From Bradyrhizobium sp. (GTDB lineage: Bacteria; Pseudomonadota; Alphaproteobacteria; Rhizobiales; Xanthobacteraceae), in assembly GCF_004799445.1 (NCBI RefSeq), contig NZ_SSNA01000112.1, positions 1-64,000 of the forward strand: a DNA stretch of 64,000 nt, in the 5' to 3' direction. Position numbers and translations under genes: made by a program. Below, piece by piece: positions 843 to 46,172 of the stretch; the first letter of the stretch is position 1; each line of letters starts with the position of its first letter. Under the pieces are notes generated by a model. The model saw nothing but the letters and a program-made list of their open reading frames with translations, was not told where the DNA came from and did no database searches.

Positions 843-2732
843 ATGAGTGTCGATCAAGGTCAGGCGCAAGCAGTACCTCCGCCTCGCGGGATTTCGAATC
901 TGCTATCGACCCTGGCGTCCGACGACCCCGTGGCGCTTGGGCTGCGCGAGAGCGCGCGGCGCATGGTTGGCATTGCCGTGTTCAGCGGGGTGATCAATGT
1001 TCTGATGCTGTCGGGCTCGCTTTATATGTTGCAGGTCTATGATCGGGTTATTCCGAGCCGCAACATTACGACCTTGCTGGGCCTCTCGCTGATCGTGCTG
1101 TTTGCCTATCTTATGCAAGGATACTTCGACGCGCTGCGATCGCGCATGCTGTGTCGGGTCGCAACGGTTTTCGACGCCGGCTTGCAGCAATCGATCCACA
1201 CGGCGCTCGCCACGTTGCCACTTCGCGGCGTGAAGCCGATGCTGATGCAGCAGCCTTTGCGCGATCTCGACCAGGTGCGCGGCTTTATGTCCGGCATGGG
1301 GCCAACGGCGTTCCTTGATATGCCGTGGATTCCGATCTTTCTCATTGCGTTGTTTCTGTTTCATCCGGCAATCGGTATGACGGCTCTGCTCGGGACCGCC
1401 GGGATCATTGCGATGACGTTGCTGACCGAGCGCATGTCGCGCGGTGCCGCCAGGGCCGCGATGGAATCAAGCGCCCAGCGCCAGGTGCTGGCGGATGCGA
1501 CGCAGCGCAATGCCGAAATTATCCGGGCCCTGGGCATGACGGATCGATTCACCGCCCGCTGGTCGCGGGCCAACGAGCGCTATTTGCGGGAAAATATCCG
1601 CGCCACCGACGTTGCTGCCAATCTCGGCTCGGGCGCGAAGGTGCTGCGCTATGTGCTGCAATCGGGAATGTTGGGCATCGGTGCATATCTTGTCGTGGCC
1701 GACCGGGCTTCGGGCGGCATCATGATCGCGTCGTCGATCATGATGGGACGCGCTCTGGCGCCGGTTGAAATAGCCCTCAGTACCTGGAAGCAGTTGGTCG
1801 CCGCGCGCCAGGGCATCGTCCGCCTGCGCGAAATCTGCAAGGTTACCGCGACACTTCCCGCACCACCGGTGGTGCTGCCGCGTCCTTGCCGTGAGCTATC
1901 GGTGCAGGGTCTGGCCGTCGCTGCGCCCGGCACGGAAAAGCTGATCGTCTCGGAAATTTCTTTCTCGCTCCGGGCCGGCATGGGTCTGGTTCTGCTTGGC
2001 GCGAGCGCATCGGGCAAGACCTCGCTCTCAAAGGCGCTGGTAGGAATCTGGCAGGCCCAGCGCGGAGTGGTGCGGCTCGACGGCGCCGCGCTCGATCAAT
2101 GGCGAAACGAGGATCTGGGCCGCTATATCGGCTACCTGCCTCAGGATGTTGCCTTGTTCGATGGCACCGTTGCCGAGAATATCTGCCGCTTCGACGATCA
2201 GGCGACCTCCGATGCCATCCTCAAAGCGGCGCAGATCGCCGGCGTGCATGACATTATCTTGCGCCTTCCGGAGGGCTATTCGACGCGGATCGGCGAGGGC
2301 GGCATGAGCTTGTCCGCGGGCCAGCGGCAGAGACTGGGGCTGGCGCGGGCGGTGTTCGGCGATCCGTTTCTGGTTGTGCTCGATGAGCCCAATGCCAATC
2401 TGGATGCCGACGGCGAAAATGCCCTGACCCGCGCCATTCAGATTCTGCGCCAGAACAATTGCATCGTCATCGTCATATCGCACCGTCCAAGTGCTCTCTC
2501 GGCATTGAACATGGCGATGGTGCTCTATGAAGGAAGGGCGATCGCCTTTGGCCCACGCGAAGAGATATTTGCGCGCGTTCGCACCGGGACAGGCCAAGCC
2601 GCGGCGGCAACGCAGGCCGCGGCAGCACGGCAGCCTGCGGCAGCAGGACAGTCGGCGGCGGCGAAGCAAACTGCGGCGCCGAGTCCGAATTCGGCGCGCC
2701 TCGCTGTGCTGGCCGAGAGCGCCCTGCCATGA
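843..2732 (+). CDS. Type I secretion system permease/ATPase (PrtD/HlyB-like ABC exporter)
   Basis: Inner-membrane ABC exporter that would energise one-step secretion of a protein through a HlyD adaptor and a TolC-type outer-membrane channel. I start it at the ATG at 843 (about 629 residues), because the 46 upstream residues in the ORF track are not family-like. An N-terminal six-helix membrane domain covers roughly residues 40-310 and an ATPase domain roughly 340-560. The ATPase has a Walker A GASASGKTS, a signature LSAGQRQRLGLARA and a Walker B VVLDEP. There is no peptidase C39 domain, as in PrtD/LapB-type exporters. The last 50 residues are a low-complexity Ala/Gln tail (AAATQAAAARQPAAAGQ) absent from typical PrtD proteins. 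The stop overlaps the HlyD start as ATGA, so the two genes are translationally coupled. No TolC-like gene is in the window. Confidence 0.9.
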   Translation: MSVDQGQAQAVPPPRGISNLLSTLASDDPVALGLRESARRMVGIAVFSGVINVLMLSGSLYMLQVYDRVIPSRNITTLLGLSLIVLFAYLMQGYFDALRSRMLCRVATVFDAGLQQSIHTALATLPLRGVKPMLMQQPLRDLDQVRGFMSGMGPTAFLDMPWIPIFLIALFLFHPAIGMTALLGTAGIIAMTLLTERMSRGAARAAMESSAQRQVLADATQRNAEIIRALGMTDRFTARWSRANERYLRENIRATDVAANLGSGAKVLRYVLQSGMLGIGAYLVVADRASGGIMIASSIMMGRALAPVEIALSTWKQLVAARQGIVRLREICKVTATLPAPPVVLPRPCRELSVQGLAVAAPGTEKLIVSEISFSLRAGMGLVLLGASASGKTSLSKALVGIWQAQRGVVRLDGAALDQWRNEDLGRYIGYLPQDVALFDGTVAENICRFDDQATSDAILKAAQIAGVHDIILRLPEGYSTRIGEGGMSLSAGQRQRLGLARAVFGDPFLVVLDEPNANLDADGENALTRAIQILRQNNCIVIVISHRPSALSALNMAMVLYEGRAIAFGPREEIFARVRTGTGQAAAATQAAAARQPAAAGQSAAAKQTAAPSPNSARLAVLAESALP

Positions 2733-44292: not shown

Positions 44293-44535
44293 TTACGGCT
44301 TTTGATCGAAGGTGACGCCGATCCGCTTCTCCTTGCGCCAGACGACGCGGCAGGGCAGATGGTTGCCATCGGTCACCAAGGTGAACTGCGCCGGGATTCC
44401 AAGTGGGCTGCCAACGTCCAGAGCCGCGCCGGTGGCGGAGATATTGCGGACCGTGCAATCGATCGCACCGCCGCCGAACTCGATCTTTCCGGCCTTCAAG
44501 ACCCGATGCCTGGTTGCAATCCGGTGCTCGTCCAT
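44293..44535 (-). CDS. PilZ domain protein, 80 aa
   Basis: An 80-residue single-domain PilZ protein. The first motif is in RIATRHRVLKAG (RxxxR) and the second in CTVRNISATGAALDV (D/NxSxxG), the residues that bind c-di-GMP. The ATG at 44535 gives a compact domain; the ORF track uses a TTG at 44553. It is upstream of the TPR/ATP-grasp gene on the same strand. A PAS-GGDEF-EAL protein is encoded elsewhere in the window, but no link is implied by position. Confidence 0.85.
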   Translation of the reverse strand: MDEHRIATRHRVLKAGKIEFGGGAIDCTVRNISATGAALDVGSPLGIPAQFTLVTDGNHLPCRVVWRKEKRIGVTFDQKP

Positions 44536-44659
44536 CGGGTCGTCCAGCTCCAAAACCGCATCGAATGATAGCAGGTTTCCCGAAAAAGCCCCGGACCACG
44601 CGGGGTCTTCTGGCGGGGAACCGAAAGCGGGCCGGAACCATCACGGAGCTGGCGACTTA

Positions 44660-44752
44660 GCGATGTACTGCCGGACGCCCGGAGCCCCCCTTTGGCGTCC
44701 GTCTTAACGACGGCCCCAGCGCGCCCCCCTCGCGCTGGGGCCGGTCCTTTTT
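44660..44752 (+). ncRNA. Candidate small RNA with two C-rich hairpin loops
   Basis: On the plus strand, between two minus-strand genes, a perfect 8-bp stem CGGACGCC / GGCGTCCG (44672-44701) carries a 14-base loop with GCCCCCCTTT. A 13-bp stem CGGCCCCAGCGCG / CGCGCTGGGGCCG (44711-44743) carries the loop CCCCCCT and is followed by TCCTTTTT. The T-run makes sense only for a rightward transcript, yet both neighbours read leftward. C-rich loops of this type pair with Shine-Dalgarno sequences in alphaproteobacterial sRNAs. The 5' end is not defined; 44660 is an estimate. Coding and promoter evidence are lacking. Confidence 0.5.
44711..44752 (+). terminator. Plus-strand intrinsic terminator of the sRNA candidate
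   Basis: A 13-bp stem (44711-44743) with a 7-base C-rich loop and a T-run ending near 44752. On the minus strand the same hairpin lacks a T-run, so it does not serve the kinase gene. Confidence 0.65.
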
Positions 44753-44790
44753 GGCGAGCCGCGTGGGGCCAAATCGAGACGTGTTTTCGG

Positions 44791-45573
44791 CTATTCGGAA
44801 ACGGTCGAAGCCAGAGAGGCCAGCGGCACGTTGAGCGCATAGACGAAGCCGGCGGGCTCATAGGTCAAAACCACGTCGCCCTTGAGCTGCCTGCCGAGCG
44901 TTTCGATCAGCCGGGTGCCGAAACTGCGCCGCTCGGGAGAGCGGACCTCGGGGCCGTTCTTCTCGGTCCATGTCAGATTCAGGCGCTGCCCGCTGGGGTC
45001 GAGCGCCCAGGCGATCTCGACGCGCCCGGTTGGAACCGACAGCGCGCCGAATTTCGTGGTGTTGGTGCAGAGTTCGTTGAGCGTCATCGCAATCGCGATC
45101 ACGGCTCCCGACGTCATCCGTATTTCGGGTCCCGCGATCGAGAATTTCGGGGTGTCCGCACTGTCGAATGCTTCGATCGCACCGCGAATGATGTTGCCGA
45201 GGTCCGCGGTCGTCCATCTCGCCTGCAACAGAAGGTCGTGAGCCCGCCCCAGCGCCAGCAGCCGGCCCTCGATCGCGCGCTGCGCGTGTTCGGCGCCCGC
45301 CACGTTGCGCAGGCTCTGGGAGACAATCGCGTTGACGGTCGCCAGCGTATTCTTGATGCGGTGGTGCAGTTCCTCGAGAATCAGCTTCTGGAGCTTGTCG
45401 GCCGCCTCGCGCTCCATGGCGTCAATACCGGCCTGGGCGAGCAATTTCCGCGCATCGATTTCGGCCTGCTCAAGCAGCAACCGAAGGCTGACGTTCTCCG
45501 CCTCCAGAATCTCATGGTGCGGCGCGTCGAGACCAGCATGGCGCTCGTGTTGATGAAGGTCAGTTCCAAGCAT
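44791..45573 (-). CDS. HWE/HisKA_2 family histidine kinase
   Basis: A 260-residue soluble histidine kinase with no membrane segment. A coiled coil (about 20-65) leads to the dimerisation helix with the phospho-His in EELHHRIKNTLATV (about 71). The ATPase core has MTLNELCTNTTKFGALS (N-box) and SFGTRLIETLGRQLKGDV. The HRIKN motif and FGTRLIE are characteristic of the HWE/HisKA_2 group of the alphaproteobacterial general stress response. It follows a single-domain response regulator by about 100 bases on the same strand, so they are likely partners. The ATG at 45573 is preferred over a GTG at 45636. Confidence 0.85.
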   Translation of the reverse strand: MLGTDLHQHERHAGLDAPHHEILEAENVSLRLLLEQAEIDARKLLAQAGIDAMEREAADKLQKLILEELHHRIKNTLATVNAIVSQSLRNVAGAEHAQRAIEGRLLALGRAHDLLLQARWTTADLGNIIRGAIEAFDSADTPKFSIAGPEIRMTSGAVIAIAMTLNELCTNTTKFGALSVPTGRVEIAWALDPSGQRLNLTWTEKNGPEVRSPERRSFGTRLIETLGRQLKGDVVLTYEPAGFVYALNVPLASLASTVSE

Positions 45574-45676
45574 GAGCAAGTGTATCACCTTATGTCGGAT
45601 ACCGGTCAGAACAATCGAGGCGGCATTGGTACACAACGGGCTGAATATCGACGTTTTTCGCCTGGAAGCACCGAAA

Positions 45677-46063
45677 TCAGGCGTGGCCGATCATTTTCTG
45701 CATCTGGGAGATCATTTCCGCGGCTTCGAGCGGTTTTCCGAAGAATCGGCTGTCGGCAGGAATTTCGGTGGTGCTCAGCTTCAACTGGCCGGAGACCAGG
45801 ATGATCCTGATCGGGGGCCAGCGCTCATGCACCGTGTGGGCGAGCTTCAGCCCGTCCATGCTGCCGGGCATCTGGATGTCGGTCATGACCAGCGCGATGT
45901 CGGATCGGGATTCGAGGATTGCGACAGCTTCGTCTGCATCCACGGCCTCAACCGAGGTATAGCCGGCGTCTTCGACCATATCGACCGCGCGCATCCGCAG
46001 CAGCATCTCGTCTTCGACGACGAGAATGACCGCGCGAACAAGCGAATGATCCAGAACCGTCAT
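45677..46063 (-). CDS. Single-domain response regulator
   Basis: A 128-residue receiver domain without an output domain. The phosphorylation Asp is about residue 62 in ALVMTDIQMPGSMDG, the acid pair is VVEDE, and the conserved Lys is in FFGKPLE. The start MTVLDHSLVR at 46063 is preferred over the longer track frame. It is upstream of the HWE kinase in an apparent two-gene unit. Single-domain regulators often act as phosphate sinks or protein-binding switches. Tandem 12-bp repeats lie just upstream. Confidence 0.87.
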   Translation of the reverse strand: MTVLDHSLVRAVILVVEDEMLLRMRAVDMVEDAGYTSVEAVDADEAVAILESRSDIALVMTDIQMPGSMDGLKLAHTVHERWPPIRIILVSGQLKLSTTEIPADSRFFGKPLEAAEMISQMQKMIGHA

Positions 46064-46124
46064 GACGGGCGCTTTCGAGGGTGGCGAAAGAAATCGGCCC
46101 GTGCCATCGACCGGAATGGCCGCG

Positions 46125-46172
46125 CGAGACAACTATCGAGACAACTATCGAGACAATTATCGAGACAAGTAT
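46125..46172. repeat. Four tandem 12-bp repeats upstream of the response regulator and opgC
   Basis: CGAGACAACTAT occurs twice exactly (46125-46136 and 46137-46148), followed by CGAGACAATTAT (46149-46160) and CGAGACAAGTAT (46161-46172). They lie between the divergent response-regulator and opgC genes. Twelve bases is just over one helical turn. They could be a regulator array or simple slippage. Confidence 0.75.

Follow-up and report, generated by a model that had tools for sequence, protein, structure and literature searches.

Within the window, that is, the whole 64,000-nucleotide stretch of Bradyrhizobium sp. DNA analysed in this study (contig NZ_SSNA01000112.1), the genes for a PilZ-domain protein and an HWE-family histidine kinase, both read from the minus strand, flank a short region that contains a stem with a T-run (Table 1). 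The presence of a rightward terminator between two minus-strand genes, proposed in an earlier note on this DNA, was confirmed. Judged from its sequence, the region 44634-44752 (+) looks like a complete, unannotated small-RNA (sRNA) gene with its own ECF-type promoter and terminator.

Table 1 Predicted sRNA gene and its neighbours (window coordinates).
Feature	Position	Strand	Basis
Predicted sRNA gene overall, promoter to terminator	44634-44752	+	Computed promoter and fold
Predicted -35 element GGAAC of the ECF-type promoter	44634..44638	+	GGAAC enrichment upstream of hairpin 1
Predicted -10 element CTTA, 17 nt past GGAAC	44656..44659	+	Same spacing in held-out relatives
Predicted sRNA, ~85 nt	44668..44752	+	R2 match and fold; start from promoter spacing
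Hairpin 1 (H1), 8 bp, C6 loop run at 44685-44690	44672..44701	+	Fold; covarying stem
Hairpin 2 (H2), intrinsic terminator stem, 13 bp, loop CCCCCCT at 44724-44730	44711..44743	+	Fold; covarying stem
Terminator tail GTCCTTTTT, directly after H2	44744..44752	+	
PilZ-domain protein gene, divergent neighbour	44293..44553	-	PF07238, E 1.5e-8
HWE-family histidine kinase gene, convergent neighbour	44791..45636	-	PF07536, E 2.7e-24; synteny
Receiver-domain response regulator gene, upstream of the kinase gene	45677..46132	-	PF00072, E 1.8e-14; synteny

The fold of the RNA 44668-44752 has an energy of -48.7 kcal/mol, compared with -32.7 ± 3.1 kcal/mol for shuffled sequences (z -5.15, 0/200 shuffles). 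On the minus strand the stem has no T-run behind it, hence the terminator points rightwards. Both hairpins with C-rich loops described in the earlier note are present, but the second does not precede the terminator as was stated there: it is itself the terminator stem, so that the C-rich loop belongs to the terminator.

In a BLAST search covering 61 genomes, among them 36 congeners, matches came from 8 genomes, all of them Bradyrhizobium. A covariance model built from six of the sequences found by BLAST (R1) had matches in 55 of 120 congeneric genomes. With a second model built from 40 members (R2), the covariance search across Bradyrhizobium genomes suggested in the earlier note found relatives in 121 of 272 genomes, often in several copies, and, beyond the genus, in a small number of genomes from sister genera. 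Under strict filters, which lose weak matches, R2 had no match in over half of the congeneric genomes. The window copy matches R2 at 44668-44753 with 66.2 bits (E 6.2e-14), a copy of the window sequence being among the 40 from which the model was built. The highest copy number, 23 R1 matches, was found in one genome, from which 11 distinct fetched copies carry the promoter. In the window's own genome R1 has six matches; among those examined, two (the window copy and C28) have GGAAC rightly placed. When a named collection was scanned for the promoter-plus-terminator pattern, most matches again came from Bradyrhizobium; those from other organisms were mostly chance terminators, the exceptions being two alphaproteobacterial MAGs (L139, L151). 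The sRNA is one of a multicopy family whose centre is Bradyrhizobium. In two genomes, members lie in tandem or at most ~1.3 kb apart (L058 and L068 in G012, L027/L072 in G110), which suggests local duplication of the sRNA unit.

Selection on the structure was assessed in a MAFFT alignment of 40 members, in which 91.3% of the cells assigned to pairs are paired; when the partner was slid by 1-3 columns as a control, pairing fell to only 31-44%. The earlier note had made its proposal depend on stems conserved with compensatory changes, and such changes were found: 34 cells are changed on both sides, compared with 11.8 ± 3.0 after shuffling, and 11 pairs covary, compared with 6.9 ± 1.4, although these shuffle counts are not readable as probabilities because the aligned members are kin. 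Wobbles are one-sided when the plus strand is read, with 67 G.U and 7 A.C cells (p ~2e-13, assuming independent cells), as would be expected if the plus-strand RNA is the folding species. Across the family, C makes up 63% and G 10% of the letters in hairpin loops. Among 86 distinct members, an unpaired run of at least four C occurs in H2 of 71 and in H1 of 46, so a C-rich H1 loop is not universal, and an unpaired run of at least four G occurs in one. The C tract in the loop also varies in length: in L047 (G025:C1:7540905-7540992) that of H2 is C11, where the sister copy L017 has C6.

In the relatives, hairpin 1 is preceded by GGAAC, followed after 16-17 nt by CTTG or CTTA, or by CGTT in some subfamilies; the window promoter is GGAAC-N17-CTTA (44634-44659). 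At 24-40 nt before hairpin 1, GGAAC was found in 39 of 40 held-out loci, taken from genomes not used for R2, and in 2.2% of control windows elsewhere in promoter-bearing loci. R2 has no promoter columns and was built from promoter-carrying members, hence what the 39 of 40 shows is that a structure match in a new genome predicts the promoter, and not that every match carries it. In a looser first set, GGAAC was present in 66 of 102 loci, with 3.4 expected. The -10 element at this spacing is CTTG in 28 and CTTA in 5 of the held-out loci with GGAAC, together 33/39. When 47 non-redundant members were aligned at GGAAC, conservation was clear downstream and none was seen upstream; since it starts abruptly at this motif and continues downstream, what is repeated is a single predicted transcription unit that extends from the -35 element to the T-run. 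From the promoter spacing, transcription would begin at the base of hairpin 1, probably near 44667-44670 instead of at 44660, the start given in the earlier note. A scan for sigma-70 promoters found none, as expected for an ECF promoter. Four loci (L101, L104, L073, L069) represent subfamilies in which hairpin 1 differs, the terminator is similar and the promoter is GGAAC-N16/17-CGTT; they are apparently further EcfG-type sRNAs.

The genes next to 108 promoter-bearing members (~105 with GGAAC itself, a few near-variants having been added by hand) occur in all orientations, the recurrent ones encoding cNMP-binding regulators, transglycosylase-associated proteins and a response regulator. Eight or nine other loci repeat the convergent arrangement of the RNA with an orthologous HWE kinase gene (kinase identity 68-77%), mostly within ~60 nt and in one case ~400-500 nt away, and at most of these loci a response regulator gene lies upstream of the kinase gene, in the same order as in the window. 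In other Alphaproteobacteria, the general stress response receives input from HWE/HisKA2 kinases and single-domain regulators (PMC5964349).

Of the ECF sigma factors, the one that would recognise the promoter is probably EcfG, which serves the general stress response. The EcfG class consensus is GGAAC-N16-CGTT in R. etli (PMC3892343) and GGAAC-N17-20-GTT in Sphingomonas (PMC6599016); the CTTG/CTTA of the sRNA matches the EcfG pattern in part only and is not the usual cGTT. Across 30 Bradyrhizobium genomes, most nepR-ecfG promoters read GGAAC-N17-ATTA or ATTG and most phyR promoters GGAAC-N16-CGTA, and this variation indicates that the -10 sequence is loose. Among the EcfG sites in the literature are GGAACGAATG...ATT and GGAAC...CTTT (PMC6599016). 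In the window's own genome, the nepR-ecfG / phyR intergenic region (L105, 1255-1413) carries divergent GGAAC promoters.

At the gathering cut-off, Rfam 15 has no match in the window, and among 20 relatives it places no family on the sRNA, matching elsewhere in these loci only tRNA and Atu_At1; the latter (RF02496), a Rhizobiales sRNA, lies in L311 at 2312-2425 (-), ~0.7-0.8 kb from a family member. The nearest Rfam family is 6C RNA (RF01066; B11 in mycobacteria), known from Actinobacteria, which likewise has two hairpins with C6-type loops, the second followed by a 3' tail, whereas its promoter class differs. The window RNA scores 34.9 bits against this model (E 0.0094), under the gathering score of 47, and we do not assign it to 6C, though it shares the two hairpins with C6 loops. 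In B11, the two loops are redundant in action on a G-tract (PMC10470900).

GsrN of Caulobacter, a sigma-T/EcfG-dependent sRNA whose 5' C-rich loop pairs with a G-tract in the katG leader and activates katG (PMC5869019), resembles the window sRNA in being alphaproteobacterial, with an ECF-type promoter, in the window apparently of the EcfG class, and an exposed C-rich loop; the window family, by contrast, is multicopy and has a second C loop in the terminator. Relative to the GsrN promoter, GGAAC-N16/17-cGTT, the -35 element and spacing agree and the -10 CTTA differs. By published BLASTn, sequence relatives of GsrN are found in Caulobacteraceae only, and GsrN-like predictions outside this family rely on closeness to the ecfG-nepR-phyR locus (PMC5869019). 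In the window's genome (G000), the NepR locus and the window copy are on different contigs (C177 and C16), and none of the listed G000 matches of either family model lies on C177. The position away from the ecfG locus and the different -10 element led us to set the family apart from GsrN. The Sinorhizobium alpha-r14 / NfeR1 sRNAs, six copies of which are present in S. meliloti with an anti-Shine-Dalgarno motif in the loops (PMC7143759), are similar in copy number and loop type; NfeR1, however, has three hairpins with the motif in every loop. The window RNA has only two hairpins from promoter to terminator and no Rfam match to the alpha-r14 family, and we do not count it as a member. ReC64 of Rhizobium etli is an sRNA of similar length (88 nt) with an EcfG1 promoter (consensus GGAAC-N16-CGTT) and a mapped transcription start (PMC3892343), but it occupies a single locus downstream of phyR-tcrY, and its likeness to the window family is one of length and promoter rather than of shown sequence kinship.

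The best reading is a new family among the C-rich-loop sRNAs, a kind already known; it would work like GsrN or 6C and belongs to neither. Our search of the open literature found no paper describing it, though the family may overlap with the BjrC sRNAs, which Madhugiri et al. reportedly described in 2012.

On the computed structure, promoter position, conservation, family and synteny, we propose an ECF-driven, probably EcfG-driven, trans-acting sRNA whose C loops pair with G-rich or Shine-Dalgarno sites, and give this reading as a whole a probability of about 0.65. Stress would free the ECF sigma factor, which would then direct transcription of the 85-nt RNA; its two exposed C loops, the second belonging to the terminator hairpin, would pair in trans with G-rich mRNA stretches, leading to repression where they lie at or near a Shine-Dalgarno site and to activation where they lie in leaders. 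That the sRNA is transcribed seems very likely; by analogy with the studied C-loop sRNAs, it also probably acts on mRNAs through its C loops. Several gene starts in the window have suitable sites, e.g. ugagggcguc and gggagggcgu. In a weak test over 53 window genes with crude start calls, loop duplex energies at translation starts were no better than those at random sites (p 0.21). Thus, of the anti-Shine-Dalgarno sRNA proposed in the earlier note, the gene itself, with its two C-rich loops, has strong support from the conserved promoter at a fixed distance, the covariation and the plus-strand G.U bias, and further from the family-wide C-richness of the loops and the multi-copy dispersal, while the anti-Shine-Dalgarno function is still one that we infer. 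That note did not mention the ECF promoter, the linkage to HWE kinase genes or the existence of a multi-copy family.

Other explanations may be weighed against this one. Many copies per genome of a short, palindromic, intergenic and sometimes tandem element, together with a number of weak matches that have only the terminator hairpin in common, could also point to a mere terminator or a dispersed repeat (REP/MITE-like) and no gene at all. We regard this as very improbable: the conserved block spans the -35 element to the T-run, the promoter is present in 39 of the 40 held-out copies, the flanking genes take all orientations, and the asymmetry between G.U and A.C with the compensatory changes argues for a structured RNA made from one strand. 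Both the simple-terminator and the repeat explanations were rejected on the promoter and G.U evidence. Only slightly less improbable is a cis-acting antisense element, in which rightward transcription would control the convergent HWE kinase/response-regulator mRNA. In the window, the predicted RNA does end ~40 nt short of the stop codon of the kinase gene, and the arrangement recurs at the eight or nine other loci; however, it has no overlap with the kinase coding sequence, and members with the same RNA and promoter adjoin unrelated genes, such as those for cNMP-binding regulators, transglycosylase-associated proteins and VIT-family proteins.

Two further alternatives keep the sRNA gene and alter its control or its action. 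A stress sRNA under a non-EcfG ECF sigma factor recognising GGAAC-N17-CTTR, which we consider possible though rather unlikely, would account for CTTG/CTTA in 33/39 held-out loci as against ATTA/ATTG at nepR-ecfG and mostly CGTA at phyR; for Bradyrhizobium japonicum, 17 putative ECF sigma factors are given (PMC3420878). Against it stand GGAAC-N16/17-CGTT in other family members (e.g. L069, L073, L101, L104), the CTTT and ATT endings among published EcfG targets (PMC6599016), and the motif of EcfF, GTAAC-N14-15, which differs from the GGAAC promoter and is the sole other such B. japonicum ECF motif that we found in the literature (PMC3420878). It is also conceivable, though improbable, that the RNA binds a protein (a C-rich-loop-binding regulator or a chaperone) or sponges RNAs instead of pairing with mRNA. 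The many sibling copies, the strongly conserved H2 stem and the lack of target preference in the window duplex test fit such a role; on the other hand, no partner was identified, and the studied C-rich-loop precedents, GsrN and B11, pair with G-rich mRNA sites.

Bradyrhizobium is the genus of soybean symbionts, and its general stress response affects both stress survival and symbiosis; to our knowledge, few sRNAs have been characterised in the genus. A multicopy sRNA family with ECF promoters that is not in Rfam 15 offers concrete genes for questions about post-transcriptional stress responses, raises the question why a single genus multiplied such a gene, and widens the pattern of C-rich-loop sRNAs seen in GsrN, 6C and NfeR1, possibly via convergent evolution. 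More speculatively, and with the odds against it, one stress-driven C-loop sRNA may have been amplified in Bradyrhizobium into a battery of diverging siblings under a single ECF sigma factor, with feedback at the kinase locus included; the 11 promoter-bearing copies in one genome, and the position of several beside stress or signalling genes, are consistent with this. If so, one ECF sigma factor would launch many anti-G-tract RNAs, and the copy at the HWE kinase locus would feed back on its own input pathway.

A separate three-hairpin RNA-like element was observed in genus g48 of the same bacterial family (L259, 1450-1582 (+), also L260, L261 and L262). It has no GGAAC promoter, its C-rich loops lie around UUUUCCCCCAACC, GCUCCCCCUCU and GCUCCCCC, and its fold has z -6.6 in L259 and -5.6 in L261; it is possibly another C-loop sRNA family.
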